From Methanosarcina barkeri str. Wiesmoor (GTDB lineage: Archaea > Halobacteriota > Methanosarcinia > Methanosarcinales > Methanosarcinaceae), in assembly GCF_000969985.1 (NCBI RefSeq), contig NZ_CP009526.1, positions 4,712,001 through 4,776,000 of the forward strand: a stretch of 64,000 nucleotides of DNA. Direction: 5' to 3'. Below, one piece after another: positions 5,113-29,157 of this stretch (position 1 is its first letter; every line of letters begins with the position of its first letter). A program made the translations under genes and the position numbers. The notes below the pieces were generated by a model. That model searched no databases, was not told where the DNA came from, and worked only from the letters and a program-made list of their open reading frames with translations.

Positions 5113-5234
5113 ACTAACTGTTACCTAGAAATCCTTTTATTTCAACCCTATATGTCTTGTATATAATCGAATATTTTAGTATTAAGGAAAAGTCGCAGAT
5201 TCTGTTTAAAACCAGAAAATTATGAGGTTTACAT

Positions 5235-5495
5235 ATGGTAAAGAAGGATACATCTAAAGAGAATATTGAAGAGAACACTGAGGAGGCAAGCGGAGATGGA
5301 TATGTGGAGATTAAGATGGGAGGAGGTTGGTACATGACGATCTCCCTAGCACACAGTGACCGCTTTGAGAAAGAGTATGTCGAACTTGCAAAGGAGCGGG
5401 GAGGCGTAAAAAGGTCCAGGTTCAACCTTAACCCCGCCCATGTCAGGATGTTGGGAGAAACCCTGATCAAATTTGCGGATGATAACGGCCTCTAA
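5235..5495 (+). CDS. Small conserved-looking protein of unknown function
   Basis: This 86-residue protein starts at ATG 5235 behind a GAGGT ribosome-binding site (spacing 6). The first 25 residues are acidic and low-complexity (Lys/Glu/Asn), followed by a compact folded-looking part: VEIKMGGGWYMTISLAHSDRF..., then a basic stretch RGGVKRSRFNLNPAHVRMLGETLIKFAD. No family recognised. The coding character (good RBS, mixed composition, no overlap with another gene) supports a real gene. It is convergent with tmk. Confidence 0.7.
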   Translation: MVKKDTSKENIEENTEEASGDGYVEIKMGGGWYMTISLAHSDRFEKEYVELAKERGGVKRSRFNLNPAHVRMLGETLIKFADDNGL

Positions 5496-5537
5496 CGGTC
5501 ATTTTGGTTTTAATTTAGGTTCAATTCTTGAATCTGG

Positions 5538-6155
5538 TCAGTTCCTGCTCAGGAACTCCAGTATCTTTTTCACAACTTCCTTTTCTATGTATTCGGGAGA
5601 ACGGGAAGCATCGATTACAACAAAACGTTCTGGATCATCTGCCGCAAGCTTGAGGAAAATCGCCCTGACTCCCTGTAAAAATTCTAATTTCTCGAACTTG
5701 CTTTGTTCTCCTCGTTTTCCACAGCGTTCAATTGAAATTTCGGGCCTGATATCAAAGAGAAAGGTTAGATCTGGAACAATAGTCCAGCTCCGGTGCAGAT
5801 CCTTTACCCATTCAAGAGGATTTTCCAGGCGAGTCTTCAGGGTTATGCCCTGGTAAGCATATCGGCTGTCGGAATAGCGGTCAGAAATTACTATTTTTCC
5901 GTTTTCAAGTGCAGGCTTTATAAGTTTTGCCAGATGTTCTGCATGGTCAGCTGTAAAAAGGAAAAGCTCGGCAAACTGGTCGGTATCTGACTGAATAGCT
6001 TTTTCAACGGCATCTCCAGTTAGAGTGCCTCTTGTTGGTTCCCTGGTAAAAACAGGTTTAAAGGCTTTAATTTCAGGATTCTTCTGAAGTTTTTCTGCAA
6101 CTGTGCTTTTGCCCGAGCCGTCAATGCCCTCAAGTGTGATCAGTTTCCCTCGCAT
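5538..6155 (-). CDS. tmk: Thymidylate kinase
   Basis: It phosphorylates dTMP to dTDP with ATP. The 205-residue length is normal for the family. The P-loop GIDGSGKST is at residues 10-18, the DRY signature at 92-94 (ISDRYSDSRYAYQG), and the TREPTRGT dTMP-binding segment at 37-44. The next gene, divergent, is a DUF166 protein of a family sometimes labelled thymidylate synthase, so the pair may act together in dTMP metabolism; that link is inference from position. Confidence 0.95.
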   Translation of the reverse strand: MRGKLITLEGIDGSGKSTVAEKLQKNPEIKAFKPVFTREPTRGTLTGDAVEKAIQSDTDQFAELFLFTADHAEHLAKLIKPALENGKIVISDRYSDSRYAYQGITLKTRLENPLEWVKDLHRSWTIVPDLTFLFDIRPEISIERCGKRGEQSKFEKLEFLQGVRAIFLKLAADDPERFVVIDASRSPEYIEKEVVKKILEFLSRN

Positions 6156-22873: not shown

Positions 22874-23565
22874 GCTTTAATCTCCTTTTAATGATATGAA
22901 TTTCTATGAATTTTTATTAATTGTATTCCTGAGCACGTTACCTTTGTGCGTATTTTCCTATTCTTAATGCAAGCACTTCTATATAAGAATTTCTCTGGAG
23001 CGTAAAATCTCGTTTTAAAAAAAAGGGGCTCCTGGATCTATTAATGGCTTCTTTGGGTTATTCTTCCCGGTGTATAAAGAGTCTATCCGAAAATCAATAA
23101 TAGAATATTGCAATATTTATAAGAAAGTTAATTTCAAAAATTCCGACGACTTGTATTTTAAATCAAAAGCAGATTTTATTCATCTCTATTAATCTTGCTT
23201 TTTCTATTCTAAGATATTTATCTAGATATGTTTTGTTTAGATAAGCAACTCTGAAAAGTAAGAGATTACTTGGAAAAAATACTATTTAATGAGTAAATAT
23301 ATGCTAATATTTGACTGAATAACATCGGTATTTAATTTATATCGGTTTCTTATTTATATTTCTCTAGATATTATATTTGATAAATACAATTTTCCTGTTG
23401 ATACAATTTGAAATCACTCTCACTGGCACATAAAAGAACTATAAACCAAACATAAATCAAACATAAATCAAGCAGATGCAGGTGTAAAATTGTATCAAAT
23501 TGATTCAAATGTTTGAAGTGGACAAATTAACAGAAAATAAAATCAAAATACGGGGGAAAAATCAA
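22874..23565. promoter_or_regulatory. Divergent promoter region, thermosome and DUF2795 gene
   Basis: No gene in about 690 AT-rich bases. A minus-strand TATA-like box at about 22978-22988 suits the thermosome gene. Plus-strand candidates (TTTATATCGG about 23337, TTATATTTG about 23370) suit the DUF2795 gene. ACATAAATCAA repeats twice at 23450-23471. Confidence 0.4.
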
Positions 23566-23967
23566 ATGCAGGAAAGTGCTACTGAAGTACATAATGCGAT
23601 TCAGAAAGCTTTACAAGCTTTTCAAGAGATGAAATATCCTGTAACGAAAAGTCAACTTATTGATAAAGCTAAAAGTCTTAATGCCCGTAACGAAGTAATA
23701 CAAGCTATTGAAACCATTCCAGACAAGGAATACCACAGCTCTTCGGATGTCCTCCAGGAATTCAAAGGTATTCAGAATGTTATGCAAGCTTTCAGAGAAG
23801 TGAAGTTCCCTGCAACAAAGAATCAACTTATAGAGGAAGCTAAAAAACTTAATGCCCGCAGTGAAGTGATAAACGCTCTTGAGGCTTGTTCAGACAGGGA
23901 ATACACAAACTTTTCCGATGTCATCAAGGAATGTAAAGCTAAAAGTGAATTAGCAAAGCCACGGTAA
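23566..23967 (+). CDS. Tandem DUF2795 domain protein
   Basis: This 133-residue protein is built of two homologous units of about 56 residues (starting near residues 9 and 67). Each has the DUF2795 pattern: A(L/F)xxFQEMKYP(V/A)TKxQLIxxAKxLNAR, then an Ala-rich turn and DxEYxxxSDVxxE. DUF2795 units are small helical modules of unknown function. The frame opens at TTG 23500, but ATG 23566 is better placed with GGGGG upstream and removes a low-complexity extension. It stands alone; expression signals are AT-rich. Confidence 0.75.
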   Translation: MQESATEVHNAIQKALQAFQEMKYPVTKSQLIDKAKSLNARNEVIQAIETIPDKEYHSSSDVLQEFKGIQNVMQAFREVKFPATKNQLIEEAKKLNARSEVINALEACSDREYTNFSDVIKECKAKSELAKPR

Positions 23968-24910: not shown

Positions 24911-27900
24911 TTAATGCGTTTTTATGTACTCAATCATGCGCGGAGTAAGCAGTGGAATCAGCTCAGGAAGCATATTCGGCATCAGGTTATCCATAGCTTT
25001 CGGCATAAGTTTCGGCAGCTGTTCTCGCATGTAATCAGGCATAGGAACTTTCTTTTCTACAGCTTTGAGCATGTCAGGCATGACTTTTGGCATGACTGAA
25101 GGCATTAGATTTGGCATCATGATCGGCATCATCGGTTTCATCAGAGCATCCATGCCTGGCACATATTTGACCATCTTCATCATTGCCTGAAGTGGTGCTG
25201 GCATCGCTGCCATCATCTGAGGCATGAGTTCAACCATCAGTTCGGTCATATTCTCGGGCTGCATGAGGTCGATCATCTTTTCAAAGGGAACCCACGATTC
25301 CAGAGTATAGGCGGTTGAATCAGGGATATTGTATCCAAGACTTCTGCCCACAAGGGCTCCCAGATCCTGAGCCTCGATATTCAGGTTATTTTTCTGCGCT
25401 GCCGTACGAAACTGGAAAATACAGCAAGGACAAAGCGCTGCAATGATGTCAGCTTTAACATCAAGGGCTTCCTGGAGTCTTATATCTCCCAGTTTGTATG
25501 CAATAGGCGGTTCGGCTATAAGGCTTACAACCGAACCACAACAGTGAGCTCTTTCCCTGTTGTACTCAAGTTCCCTGAACTTTATTCCAGGTATAGCCTT
25601 GAGAAGTTCTCTGGGCGGTTCGTATATTTCGCCTCCTGCTCTCCCAAGGTGGCAGGAATCATGCCAGGCTACCACCTTATCAAGAGGCTGTTTGAACTTT
25701 GGCTTAAGAACATCGAGATGATCCACGAGCACTTCAGAATAATGTTTTGCCTCAAGCCCATACTCAATTCCCAGTTTTTTCGCCCACTGAGGATAGACCG
25801 TATGCCACATGAGCCAGCAGGCAGGGCAAGAAGTAATTACGGTTTTTACGCCCTTCTTTTTCATGTTTGAGACATTCATTCTCATTATTTTTTCAAAAAC
25901 GTCCCATCTTCCGGCAACAAGCATAGGAATTCCGCAGCAGGCTTCTTTGTCTAAAAGACTTGTAAACTCTACTCCTGCATCGTCAAGCATGCGGACTGCC
26001 CCTATAGCTACGTCATTTTCGATAAAAGACGCAGTACAGCCTGCAAAGTAACCATATTCAGCTTTATCCTTTATCTTTGCCCTAATATCCTCCGGAACCC
26101 ATTTATCACGGTCTTTTCTGTAGTTTGCCCAGATATTTCTTTCTTTTAAGAGGCTTGCTGCCATGATCTCAAAAGGAGGAAAGGTCATCTTCTTATTTTC
26201 CTGGACGAGTTTTCCCCGCATGGTCATCCAGGCATGTTCGATTGGCATGTCGAGTTCACAGCGGGCATCGCACATCTGGCAGGTAGTACAAGCAAGGAAG
26301 GTATTTGTCTGTCTCTGGTCAAGTTTTTCCCGTCCTGCAAGGTATTCTTTGATGAAAAACCATTTTCCACGAGGTGACTGTGACTCCCAACCCCTGCCGT
26401 AGTACTGGTCGCACTCACTCACACAGTACCCGCACTGGGAGCAGGAATAGGCAAGTTCTGCGACTTCTGCGGGGATCTCTTTCTCGTCTTTGAAAGAAAC
26501 TTCACCAATTCCTGACATGTTTCCGGCTATTCTGGCAAAAGGTTCAAAGGCAGAGCCCATTGATACGGCAGTGTTCAGGAGTCCTTTTCCCTCAATGGTT
26601 TCAGGGTTCATGATCCCGTTAGGATCAATTTCCTTTCTCAAGGCCTCGATTTCAGCAAGTCTTTCCCCAAAAACACTTTTCCTCTTTGAAGCGAAGAAAA
26701 GCCCTGAAGAATAAGCCCTTCCCCCATTTTCTTCTGCAATTTTCAAAATGCTCAGGGAAAGAGCAAAAGCTGTATTAAAGAGCACGGAGCGCTCCGAATG
26801 GCGCATGAAACAGAGAAGAACCACATACCCGTCGTTTATAACCATGCCTTCAGTAAGCACAGGTAATTTTATTTTCTTCCCGATTTCTTCAAAAGCCCTG
26901 TCCATATTCTCAAGCGGCACCAGGATTTCCGCAGGGATAAACGAAGGACCCAGCCTCTTTACTTTCATGGACTTGAACCATTCGTCAGTCTCGTATTTTG
27001 CAATTTCTTCCGGAAGGATTGTCCCGCCTGCATTTTCGATTGCTTCTTTCAGGCCGGAAACGTCTCTCGAGGCAGGGTACATGAAAGTTGAAACGTAAGA
27101 GACCGGTAACATTGGTCTGTTTTTGTCCACTATCTCTTCATAGTGGAGTTTCCTGGGAGCTTTATTTTTCATATCCGCCCATTCAGGGTTCAGGAAGGAA
27201 ATTGACCAGAGAGGAATATTTTTTCTTTTTATATCTTCGACTGCCTTTTTCAGGGCTGAAGCGCTTGGGAAACTGGCAGAAACAGCTTTTCTCTCTTCGA
27301 ACTTCTGGACTTTCAGGGTAATCTCGGTAATGATACCTATGGTTCCCATTGTCCCGATTAACTTTTTCAGTTCAGGGCCTGAAAACTCCCGGATTTCTCC
27401 TGTGGGAAGCACAACTCTGGCTTTTTCCATGCTCTCGTGGCCCCAGCCAAACTCATAACTTCCGTAACCGGCTCCGCTCTGGGATAACCATCCTCCAACT
27501 GTCGAAGAAGGGGCGCTTGAAGGAATTGCTTGTAATGAAAGCCCTTTTTCTTTTAGTTTCCTTTCCAGCTTTTCCCAGATTATGCCGCTTTGCACAACCG
27601 CTTTTTGCCTTTCGGGATCGACGCTTATGATCTTATTCAGTGGTGTAACATCGGCAACGATTCCGCCCTTTGTCGGAATTACCCCTCCATATCCTGAAGA
27701 AGCTCCTGCGCGGGGTACAACCGGAATCTTATGCCTGTTTGCGAATTTAAGGAGCTTTACTGCGTCTTCCTCGGTCCGGATTTTTACGACAGCTGCAGGG
27801 TCAGTCTTCCCAATTACCTTCTTAACAAGTGGGGGTAAAGCTCCGATATCATGGTTGTAATAATGGCGTTCACGTTTGTCAAGATTGACATATTCCCCAA

Positions 27901-27958
27901 AGAGTTCGGAAATTTCTTTTTTCTGAGCTTCTGAAAGTTCCGCTACACGACTTATCAT
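24911..27958 (-). CDS. FAD/Fe-S oxidoreductase, GlcD-GlcF/HdrD-like fusion with Met-rich tail
   Basis: This 1015-residue protein fuses an FAD-binding-4 / FAD-oxidase half (about 50-455, glycolate oxidase GlcD or D-lactate dehydrogenase type) with two [4Fe-4S] motifs (Cys506/509/512/516 and 557/560/563/567) and two CCG domains (CCG at 674 and 806) as in GlcF and HdrD. It probably oxidises a 2-hydroxyacid such as D-lactate; the substrate is not shown. The last 125 residues are an unusual Met/Pro-rich tail with 28 Met. ATG 27958 has AGGAGAAAAAAC upstream; the frame extends further to 28018 without RBS. Confidence 0.9.
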   Translation of the reverse strand: MISRVAELSEAQKKEISELFGEYVNLDKRERHYYNHDIGALPPLVKKVIGKTDPAAVVKIRTEEDAVKLLKFANRHKIPVVPRAGASSGYGGVIPTKGGIVADVTPLNKIISVDPERQKAVVQSGIIWEKLERKLKEKGLSLQAIPSSAPSSTVGGWLSQSGAGYGSYEFGWGHESMEKARVVLPTGEIREFSGPELKKLIGTMGTIGIITEITLKVQKFEERKAVSASFPSASALKKAVEDIKRKNIPLWSISFLNPEWADMKNKAPRKLHYEEIVDKNRPMLPVSYVSTFMYPASRDVSGLKEAIENAGGTILPEEIAKYETDEWFKSMKVKRLGPSFIPAEILVPLENMDRAFEEIGKKIKLPVLTEGMVINDGYVVLLCFMRHSERSVLFNTAFALSLSILKIAEENGGRAYSSGLFFASKRKSVFGERLAEIEALRKEIDPNGIMNPETIEGKGLLNTAVSMGSAFEPFARIAGNMSGIGEVSFKDEKEIPAEVAELAYSCSQCGYCVSECDQYYGRGWESQSPRGKWFFIKEYLAGREKLDQRQTNTFLACTTCQMCDARCELDMPIEHAWMTMRGKLVQENKKMTFPPFEIMAASLLKERNIWANYRKDRDKWVPEDIRAKIKDKAEYGYFAGCTASFIENDVAIGAVRMLDDAGVEFTSLLDKEACCGIPMLVAGRWDVFEKIMRMNVSNMKKKGVKTVITSCPACWLMWHTVYPQWAKKLGIEYGLEAKHYSEVLVDHLDVLKPKFKQPLDKVVAWHDSCHLGRAGGEIYEPPRELLKAIPGIKFRELEYNRERAHCCGSVVSLIAEPPIAYKLGDIRLQEALDVKADIIAALCPCCIFQFRTAAQKNNLNIEAQDLGALVGRSLGYNIPDSTAYTLESWVPFEKMIDLMQPENMTELMVELMPQMMAAMPAPLQAMMKMVKYVPGMDALMKPMMPIMMPNLMPSVMPKVMPDMLKAVEKKVPMPDYMREQLPKLMPKAMDNLMPNMLPELIPLLTPRMIEYIKTH

Positions 27959-28173
27959 GTTTTTTCTCCTTTTTTCTCCTAATCTAGCTAATTTGTAGAC
28001 ACTTTCCAGTATGCACATTTTGTCATACTATAAAGTCAAACTCCGGAAGTGTTTTCCAGCTCCCCTGTATTTTACTATATAAGTGGTGATAATAATACTT
28101 ATTATGTTTGTCCAGGGTCATTCCGTTTTTCTATTTATATAAATAAACAATAAAAATTAATAAACATAGAACT

Positions 28174-28791
28174 TCAAAATTGCAGGGCATCTTTAGGACA
28201 GGCATCCACACAGCGCCCGCATTTTATACAATCGGGGTTTGCAGCATTTTGCGTGATTTTGAGCTGCATAGGACAGACTTTTTCACATTTCTTGCAGCTA
28301 ATGCATTTTTCCTTTTCGAGTTTAAGAGGATACTTTTTACCACCAAGCAGGCGTTGAGCTGTCCCCATAGGGCAGAAGGAACACCAGGTTCTTGGGCTCA
28401 GGTAACTGCCCAGAAGGGTTGCGATTGCAGTTGTTACCAGACACATCATCACAAACACCATGCCGATTTTCTCGAAAGTATTGAGGCTCTCAATAGCGTT
28501 TGTTATTCTGTATCCCATAAAGCCCATTAGTAGGAAAAATATTGGCAGGCGGATCCACAGGGAACGCAGAGTGGCAGGTATCTTCTTTTTCCTTGAAATC
28601 TTGCTGACCCAAAAGTCAACAAAACTTCCCCTGGGACAGAGGTTTCCGCAGAACCATCGGCCTCTGAAAGGACTAATCAGGAAGAGTGCTGCAAAAACTA
28701 GTAGCAGGAAGTACCCAAGTACTGGATACCAGAGCCCTCCTATGGAAACGATAAGAACTATAATTCCCAAGTAAGGCGTTATTTTAAGCAA
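28174..28791 (-). CDS. NapH-like membrane protein with two [4Fe-4S] clusters
   Basis: This 205-residue protein has four to five membrane helices with the CxxxCP motifs CGNLCPRGSF and CSFCPMGTAQRL, then a C-terminal ferredoxin domain with two cluster motifs (CISCKKCEKVCP and CIKCGRCVDACP). This is the NapH/RdxA/CcoG-type layout that passes electrons between membrane carriers and soluble partners. Start is TTG 28791, with GGAGG nine bases upstream inside the end of the regulator gene; the two genes are tightly coupled. The large flavoprotein follows on the same strand 215 bp on, so the two may share electrons. Confidence 0.85.
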   Translation of the reverse strand: MLKITPYLGIIVLIVSIGGLWYPVLGYFLLLVFAALFLISPFRGRWFCGNLCPRGSFVDFWVSKISRKKKIPATLRSLWIRLPIFFLLMGFMGYRITNAIESLNTFEKIGMVFVMMCLVTTAIATLLGSYLSPRTWCSFCPMGTAQRLLGGKKYPLKLEKEKCISCKKCEKVCPMQLKITQNAANPDCIKCGRCVDACPKDALQF

Positions 28792-28797
28792 AGTTAA

Positions 28798-29157
28798 TCA
28801 ACCTCCGTTTTCCCATTTTTCAAGTTCCTGTCCGAGCCGTTCAGCCCAGGAATTCACCACGGTCATGATGATATTTTTTATTTTGGCCCTTGAGTTGATC
28901 TTATACTTGAAAACATAGCCTCCTCCATCCAGGTTCTGCTGCGACCTTTGCAGAATGTCTTTTTCATACAGTTTTTTGACGGAGCGCTGGATTGTAGAAA
29001 TATCCAGCTTCAAGACTTTTGAAAGAGAATCAGTGTCAACCCACTGCTCTTTCTCATTTAAAAAGTACTTCATAACCTTAAGGTCAGCCTTTGTAAGGTT
29101 AAGGGCACACTTGATCACGTCTTCGGTTTTGAACTCTTTACAGGCAAAATCTATCAT
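28798..29157 (-). CDS. Winged-helix transcriptional regulator (TrmB/ArsR-like)
   Basis: This 119-residue single-domain regulator has a helix-turn-helix at about 25-75 (LTKADLKVMKYFLNE..., LSKVLKLDISTIQRSVKKLYEKDIL), a wing with GGYVFKYK and a C-terminal helix for dimerisation (VVNSWAERLGQELEKW). No Cys cluster for redox sensing; a single Cys pair is absent (only Cys6 and Cys17). It overlaps its target-like neighbour, the membrane ferredoxin gene. Three AGTACT sites around its promoter suggest autoregulation. Effector unknown. Confidence 0.85.
   Translation of the reverse strand: MIDFACKEFKTEDVIKCALNLTKADLKVMKYFLNEKEQWVDTDSLSKVLKLDISTIQRSVKKLYEKDILQRSQQNLDGGGYVFKYKINSRAKIKNIIMTVVNSWAERLGQELEKWENGG

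Follow-up and report, generated by a model that had tools for sequence, protein, structure and literature searches.

GlcD and the D-2-hydroxyacid dehydrogenases (LDHD and LctD) share the FAD_binding_4 (PCMH-type) fold, and their HxGDGNxH and EHG motifs have a metal/catalytic role. A double CCG unit with all ten cluster cysteines is found in HdrD/HdrB and in TfrB. EtfD, the ETF:menaquinone oxidoreductase of Mycobacterium (9ojn), combines Fer4 and CCG domains in one chain; according to the parts of its report consulted here (PMC13083937), this protein possesses a membrane region of five helices with haem b, a disordered C-terminus and Thr539 and His583 at its clusters. The same parts state that His583 completes cluster D2 and renders it non-catalytic and that Hdr retains a catalytic bridging cysteine. 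A D-lactate dehydrogenase of M. acetivorans, MA4631, appears in the consulted part of PMC11619418 and is not equated here with the enzyme described below.

The window that we analysed is a 64,000-nucleotide stretch of the Methanosarcina barkeri str. Wiesmoor genome (NZ_CP009526.1, positions 4,712,001 to 4,776,000). On its minus strand, at 24911–28018, an ORF encodes a fusion oxidoreductase of 1035 amino acids, whose Pfam domains (FAD_binding_4, Fer4_17 and two copies of CCG) confirm the FAD/Fe-S oxidoreductase identity proposed in the first-pass annotation. Alignments of orthologues to this protein begin at residues 16–25, which points to Met21 (base 27958) as the probable start codon rather than the first ATG of the ORF; the stretch between the two is 27958–28018. 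The FAD_binding_4 domain covers residues 74–212 (27383–27799, minus strand; E 7.2e-35), and the FAD half extends to about residue 475. On the same strand follow two [4Fe-4S] cysteine motifs at residues 526–536 and 577–587 (26258–26443; Pfam and conservation), CCG domain 1 with Cys 661, 694, 695, 731 and 734 (25817–26038) and CCG domain 2 with Cys 789, 826, 827, 863 and 866 (25421–25654), both CCG domains being defined by Pfam, conservation and profile alignment. The C-terminal tail, rich in methionine and proline, occupies residues 899–1035 (24914–25324, minus strand). Full-length sequences were counted after removal of truncated, interrupted or misread loci (51 of 158 were incomplete or <880 aa) and then of duplicates, which left 97 sequences in the first counts and 117 in the later ones; the non-redundant sets of 48, 52 and 61 rows are those from which similar rows were removed. 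All eight ferredoxin-type cysteines are retained in 97 of the 97 sequences, as are the ten CCG cysteines, except for C827 in one tail-less row.

The FAD half matches the D-lactate dehydrogenase mLDHD (8jdp) with a Z score of 31.6. However, the GlcD encoded in the same genome contains HIGDGNLH and EHG, whereas the residues aligned with them by BLAST in the tailed protein differ, and the His/Glu motifs HxGDGNxH and EHG are not matched there. Gly occupies the column of G439 in all 117 sequences, the 93 tailed and the 24 tail-less alike, and the protein scores 101 bits against the NCBIfam glcD cut-off of 567.9. The unmatched motifs and the Gly at column 439 indicate that the GlcD label fits the fold, not the reaction.

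The fold of the CCG half matches HdrB (8rvu/5odc, Z about 26–27), and the top NCBIfam match of the whole protein is TfrB (E 8.8e-41), although the curated cut-offs of neither TfrB (140 versus 385 bits) nor HdrB (41.1 versus 345) are reached. The tailed protein shares the double CCG unit and all ten cluster cysteines with HdrD/HdrB and TfrB, but differs from them in its fused FAD domain, in having CPCC for CPFC and in the Met/Pro tail. The Hdr-type cysteines are weak evidence of disulfide chemistry, since all ten are also kept by the GlcF-like L003 and L004 of the same genome. EtfD is matched as well (VIA Z 31.2; profile E 2.8e-49), and the two share the arrangement of Fer4 plus CCG domains in one chain. 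The tailed protein is distinguished by its FAD domain, by retaining all of the cysteines, by C865 and by a tail that is predicted to be folded. Neither the Thr/His replacements of EtfD at clusters D1 and D2 nor its N-terminal membrane domain with haem b was found in the tailed protein, the N-terminus of which is the FAD domain. In the profile alignment, C694-C695 aligns with EtfD C538-T539, C731-P-A-C734 with C581-P-H583-C584 and C863-P-C865-C866 with C709-P-F-C712.

The first-pass annotation had counted 28 Met in the last 125 residues and considered such a tail abnormal for GlcD/GlcF-type enzymes. The count was reproduced (the same 125 residues contain 20 Pro; the 137-residue domain contains 28 Met and 21 Pro), and the abnormality is borne out by a tail-less sister subfamily that stops at about residue 898 and by the tail-free GlcD/GlcF-like pair of the same genome. 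The interval proposed for the tail was right within about ten residues, but the domain begins earlier, at about residue 899 (base 25324), the point at which, by homology, the tail-less relatives stop. Met accounts for 2.6% of residues in the 49 other non-overlapping ORFs of the window and for 2.8% in the core of the oxidoreductase itself. No other ORF of the window exceeds 10 Met per 125 residues; for at least 28 Met in 125, the binomial probability is about 3e-18. The repeat quoted in the annotation, KPMMPIMMPNLMPSVMPKVMP, corresponds to residues 961–981 and includes five prolines at an exact spacing of four (P965, P969, P973, P977 and P981; 25076–25126, minus strand), mostly preceded by Met. 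The repeat unit consists of a hydrophobic residue, Met or Leu, Pro and a mostly polar residue.

Among 48 non-redundant tails, the Met content ranges from 21 to 33, the run of five prolines at spacing four is retained in 42, and, of the 22 Pro columns, 12 reach at least 90% fixation. Prolines are the most fixed positions of the tail, and substitutes at the Met columns are mainly Leu, Ile, Val and Phe; nine columns are about 90% Met or more, although most Met columns are replaceable. Met directly precedes 43% of the tail prolines, for which one possible reason would be a steric preference for unbranched residues ahead of helix prolines. Within Methanosarcinaceae, dN/dS of the tail is 0.05–0.18 in the four of six comparisons with estimable dS, the other two being saturated and the requested row L014 being absent from the set; the tail is under purifying selection.

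AlphaFold models of the full protein (pLDDT 91.9, pTM 0.90) and of the tail alone (pLDDT 89.8, pTM 0.76), based on modest alignments of 56 and 63 sequences, provide the structure prediction called for by the annotation and agree on a confident all-helical domain: short helices lead to two long ones of 35 and 40 residues, which continue through the prolines and are predicted at residues 956–990 (model residues 936–970; 25049–25153, minus strand) and 995–1034 (model residues 975–1014; 24917–25036, minus strand). The tail is probably a folded domain rather than a disordered low-complexity extension. Proline at every fourth residue is unusual in helices, and AlphaFold may be biased towards helix in repeats of this kind; should the fold be correct, evenly spaced prolines within long helices would be an unusual structural solution. 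The apolar, Met and Pro positions recur with a period of 4.0, and the 3.6-residue amphipathicity of an alpha-helix was not seen in the long helices. Pfam contains no family that matches the tail of this protein, and the best hits were at E 0.021 in a PDB profile search and at E 5.6 in a Foldseek search against solved structures; the lack of matches does not prove that the fold is new. Comparison with PDB and viral folds likewise gave no match (only one chain could be aligned in the second comparison), and no description of the Met/Pro tail was found among the PMC search results consulted.

A whole-protein search at E<=1e-60 matched 97 of 392 genomes of the phylum, a figure that includes other CCG proteins, and in the order the tail profile matched 85 of 149 genomes, one of them through a decayed remnant. 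With regard to conservation in other Methanosarcina, a check that the annotation had proposed, 16 of the 20 genomes of the genus (own genome included) contain a full tail; one (G125) contains a frameshifted remnant and three (G162, G289 and G867) none. In G125, the enzyme gene is reduced to this remnant (about 5211–5540 of G125:C6:17000-27000), which lies between the NapH-like and thermosome genes; both of these flanking genes and the winged-helix gene of the locus are retained. As to whether the tail occurs elsewhere, it does so in Bacillota, but none was found in the own genome beyond the oxidoreductase gene, nor on plasmids. Bacillota was the only bacterial phylum searched, and 36 of 398 genomes, drawn from a larger group, matched. 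Of the 38 matches in these genomes, 37 terminate an FAD-CCG core and one is a 69-aa ORF (L196, 4651–4860, minus strand), which is similar just to the last part of the tail, has no core nearby and is either a remnant or a small protein in its own right. In two genomes (L087 in G010, and G517:C303), the FAD-containing half of the fusion is separate from the CCG half, and in both the tail remains with the latter. At another locus (G157:C1:289765-294447), the orthologue matches in two parts with about 1.6 kb between them, as an insertion into the gene would produce.

The tail-less FAD-CCG fusions, found in Bacillota and some archaea, are about 900 aa long, share the core architecture and are about 30–37% identical to the tailed proteins; they differ in lacking the tail and in having G, T or S at the position of C865. 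The Bacillota core survey contained 27 tail-less rows with shorter frames (20 of these sequences were used here), and some genomes contain both forms; in the Bacillota genomes G440, G479 and G514, the two forms occur in one region at a distance of about 9 kb. The 93 tailed and 24 tail-less sequences can be told apart by nine core positions, four of which (T662, P698, P864 and C865) are beside or near cluster cysteines. The CPCC motif (C863-P-C865-C866; 25421–25432, minus strand) is present in 93 of 93 tailed sequences. C865, the extra cysteine that adjoins the last noncubane-cluster ligand (C866), is found in none of the 24 tail-less sequences, all of which have Gly, Thr or Ser instead. From this distribution across the 117 sequences, the tail seems to be coupled to a remodelled HdrD-like CCG site, and, being always accompanied by the extra cysteine, it appears to be functional in an enzyme family that has received little study. 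However, shared ancestry on a single branch could by itself account for the link between C865 and the tail.

Trees built without the tail, one from 48 tailed and 4 tail-less rows and the other from 43 and 18 rows with the CPCC columns also excluded, placed the tailed proteins on one side of a branch with an SH-aLRT support of 99. The best explanation is that the tail arose once, together with the extra cysteine of CPCC. Archaeal rows are nested among Bacillota rows, and the starred branches force at least 3–4 changes of label; these trees were quick, used a simple model and had one long branch flagged. This nesting suggests transfer of the tailed enzyme between Bacteria and Archaea. The tailed CPCC FAD-CCG fusions are a conserved subfamily set apart from the GlcD/GlcF reading, with CPCC plus a PxxxP tail as its diagnostic signature, and point to an electron-transfer enzyme of methanogens and Bacillota that has no assigned role.

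The reading that we favour, tentatively and at slightly less than even chances, is that the tail is a folded domain that serves the CCG half as a docking surface or lid. The module, predicted to be all-helical and to end in two long helices of four-residue repeats, is fused behind the second CCG domain of an enzyme with the order FAD, two [4Fe-4S] clusters and HdrD-like unit. It would most likely pack against the CCG half and present a Met-lined apolar face, which would act as a lid or docking surface where an electron-exchange partner meets the cluster site. This docking or lid role best fits the link to C865; metal binding is unlikely, and membrane or quinone docking is no more than possible. 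By the pseudo-symmetry of the two CCG repeats, C865 could also complete the CCG1 cluster in the way that His583 does D2 in EtfD, although this would fail if C865 points away. Through C865, the tuning of noncubane clusters between catalysis and electron relay can be tested directly.

Membrane attachment, the first of the alternatives though a doubtful one, would make the tail a monotopic anchor through which the CCG clusters could exchange electrons, in either direction, with a lipid carrier (methanophenazine in Methanosarcinales and menaquinone in Bacillota). The apolar stretch 962–977 is bounded by position 961 (charged in 77%) and position 978 (charged in all), and a NapH-like membrane ferredoxin adjoins the gene in some archaea. 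In addition, the consulted parts of the literature describe a CCG relative, EtfD, that feeds menaquinone (PMC13083937) and a CCG (DUF224) protein proposed as the EtfAB:menaquinone reductase of Syntrophomonas (PMC5101538, PMC3582634). MqnC or MenD was over the cut-off in 25 of 35 tailed Bacillota (G565 left out) versus 7 of 40 unmatched controls taken at intervals from the 398 genomes (Fisher P 2.6e-6, in a test that ignores shared ancestry). However, 10 of the 35 had neither gene over the cut-off, and genomes with only the tail-less form contain the pathway equally often (9 of 13); the menaquinone genes were therefore rejected as tail-specific evidence, the association being one of the FAD-CCG family as a whole rather than of the tail. 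Furthermore, the tail has no transmembrane-like segment, its alpha-helical amphipathicity is weak, and NapH is also present without the enzyme.

A more elaborate proposal, which we regard as rather improbable, describes the tail as a previously undescribed domain, a proline-tetrad helix hairpin. Lined with Met, the hairpin would form a conduit or lid above two noncubane [4Fe-4S] clusters that are modified asymmetrically: C865 would cap the CCG1 cluster, like His583 at D2 of EtfD, and leave the other as the sole reactive cluster. If this proposal is true, the protein would represent a new class of FAD-linked one-cluster oxidoreductase acting on a disulfide or a lipophilic carrier, and that class would have passed between Bacillota and methanogenic archaea.

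It is unlikely that the tail is instead an oligomerisation or redox-partner interface of flexible methionines separate from the active site. Hydrophobic stripes of period four along the two long helices and the conserved predicted fold are consistent with such an interface, but the tail covaries specifically with cluster-adjacent residues and no conserved neighbour is available as a candidate partner. Binding of Cu(I) or another metal, which the annotation had raised, would be in keeping with the 28 Met and several MxxM spacings but is very unlikely: the Met columns accept mostly Leu, Ile, Val and Phe, the tail contains no conserved Cys or His, and HMA-domain metal-ATPase genes were seen at three bacterial loci, in none of which they adjoin the enzyme gene. 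Similarly improbable is a sacrificial antioxidant shield for oxygen-labile noncubane clusters. The enzyme retains its Hdr-type cysteines, and oxygen sensitivity is expected of such clusters (PMC13083937, parts consulted), but Met is often replaced by Leu, Ile or Val while the Pro positions are most fixed, and tail-less relatives have the same cysteines without the tail. Neutral, strain-specific repeat expansion, suggested by the low-complexity look of the repeat, can be dismissed. The absence from orthologues that the annotation had named as its sign was not seen: the tail is present in nearly all intact orthologues and in Bacillota, its length and columns vary little between two domains of life, and its dN/dS is low.

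Upstream of the enzyme gene in the window are genes for a NapH/MauN-like membrane ferredoxin (28174–28791, minus strand) and a winged-helix regulator similar to Lrs14/Sta1 (28798–29157, minus strand), both of which are regarded as gene context. NapH-like and winged-helix genes precede the enzyme gene in Methanosarcina and Methanococcoides, whereas Methanolobus loci with complete flanks (e.g. L053, L055, L056 and L059) lack them there, and no gene neighbour is conserved across the whole enzyme family at the loci examined. NapH was rejected as an obligate partner: homologues occur in 81 of 100 genomes of the family, seven of which (G002, G125, G162, G221, G289, G858 and G867) have no intact copy of the enzyme. 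In Bacillota, the oxidoreductase gene is mostly solitary; at 3 of the 21 mapped loci (L141, L143 and L144), the adjacent proteins belong to one common family, that of L141 being a pyridine-nucleotide-disulfide-oxidoreductase/rhodanese fusion. Downstream of the enzyme gene in the window, in convergent orientation, lies a gene for a DUF2795 protein with two repeats (23500–23967, plus strand), which is also present at a few other Methanosarcina loci.
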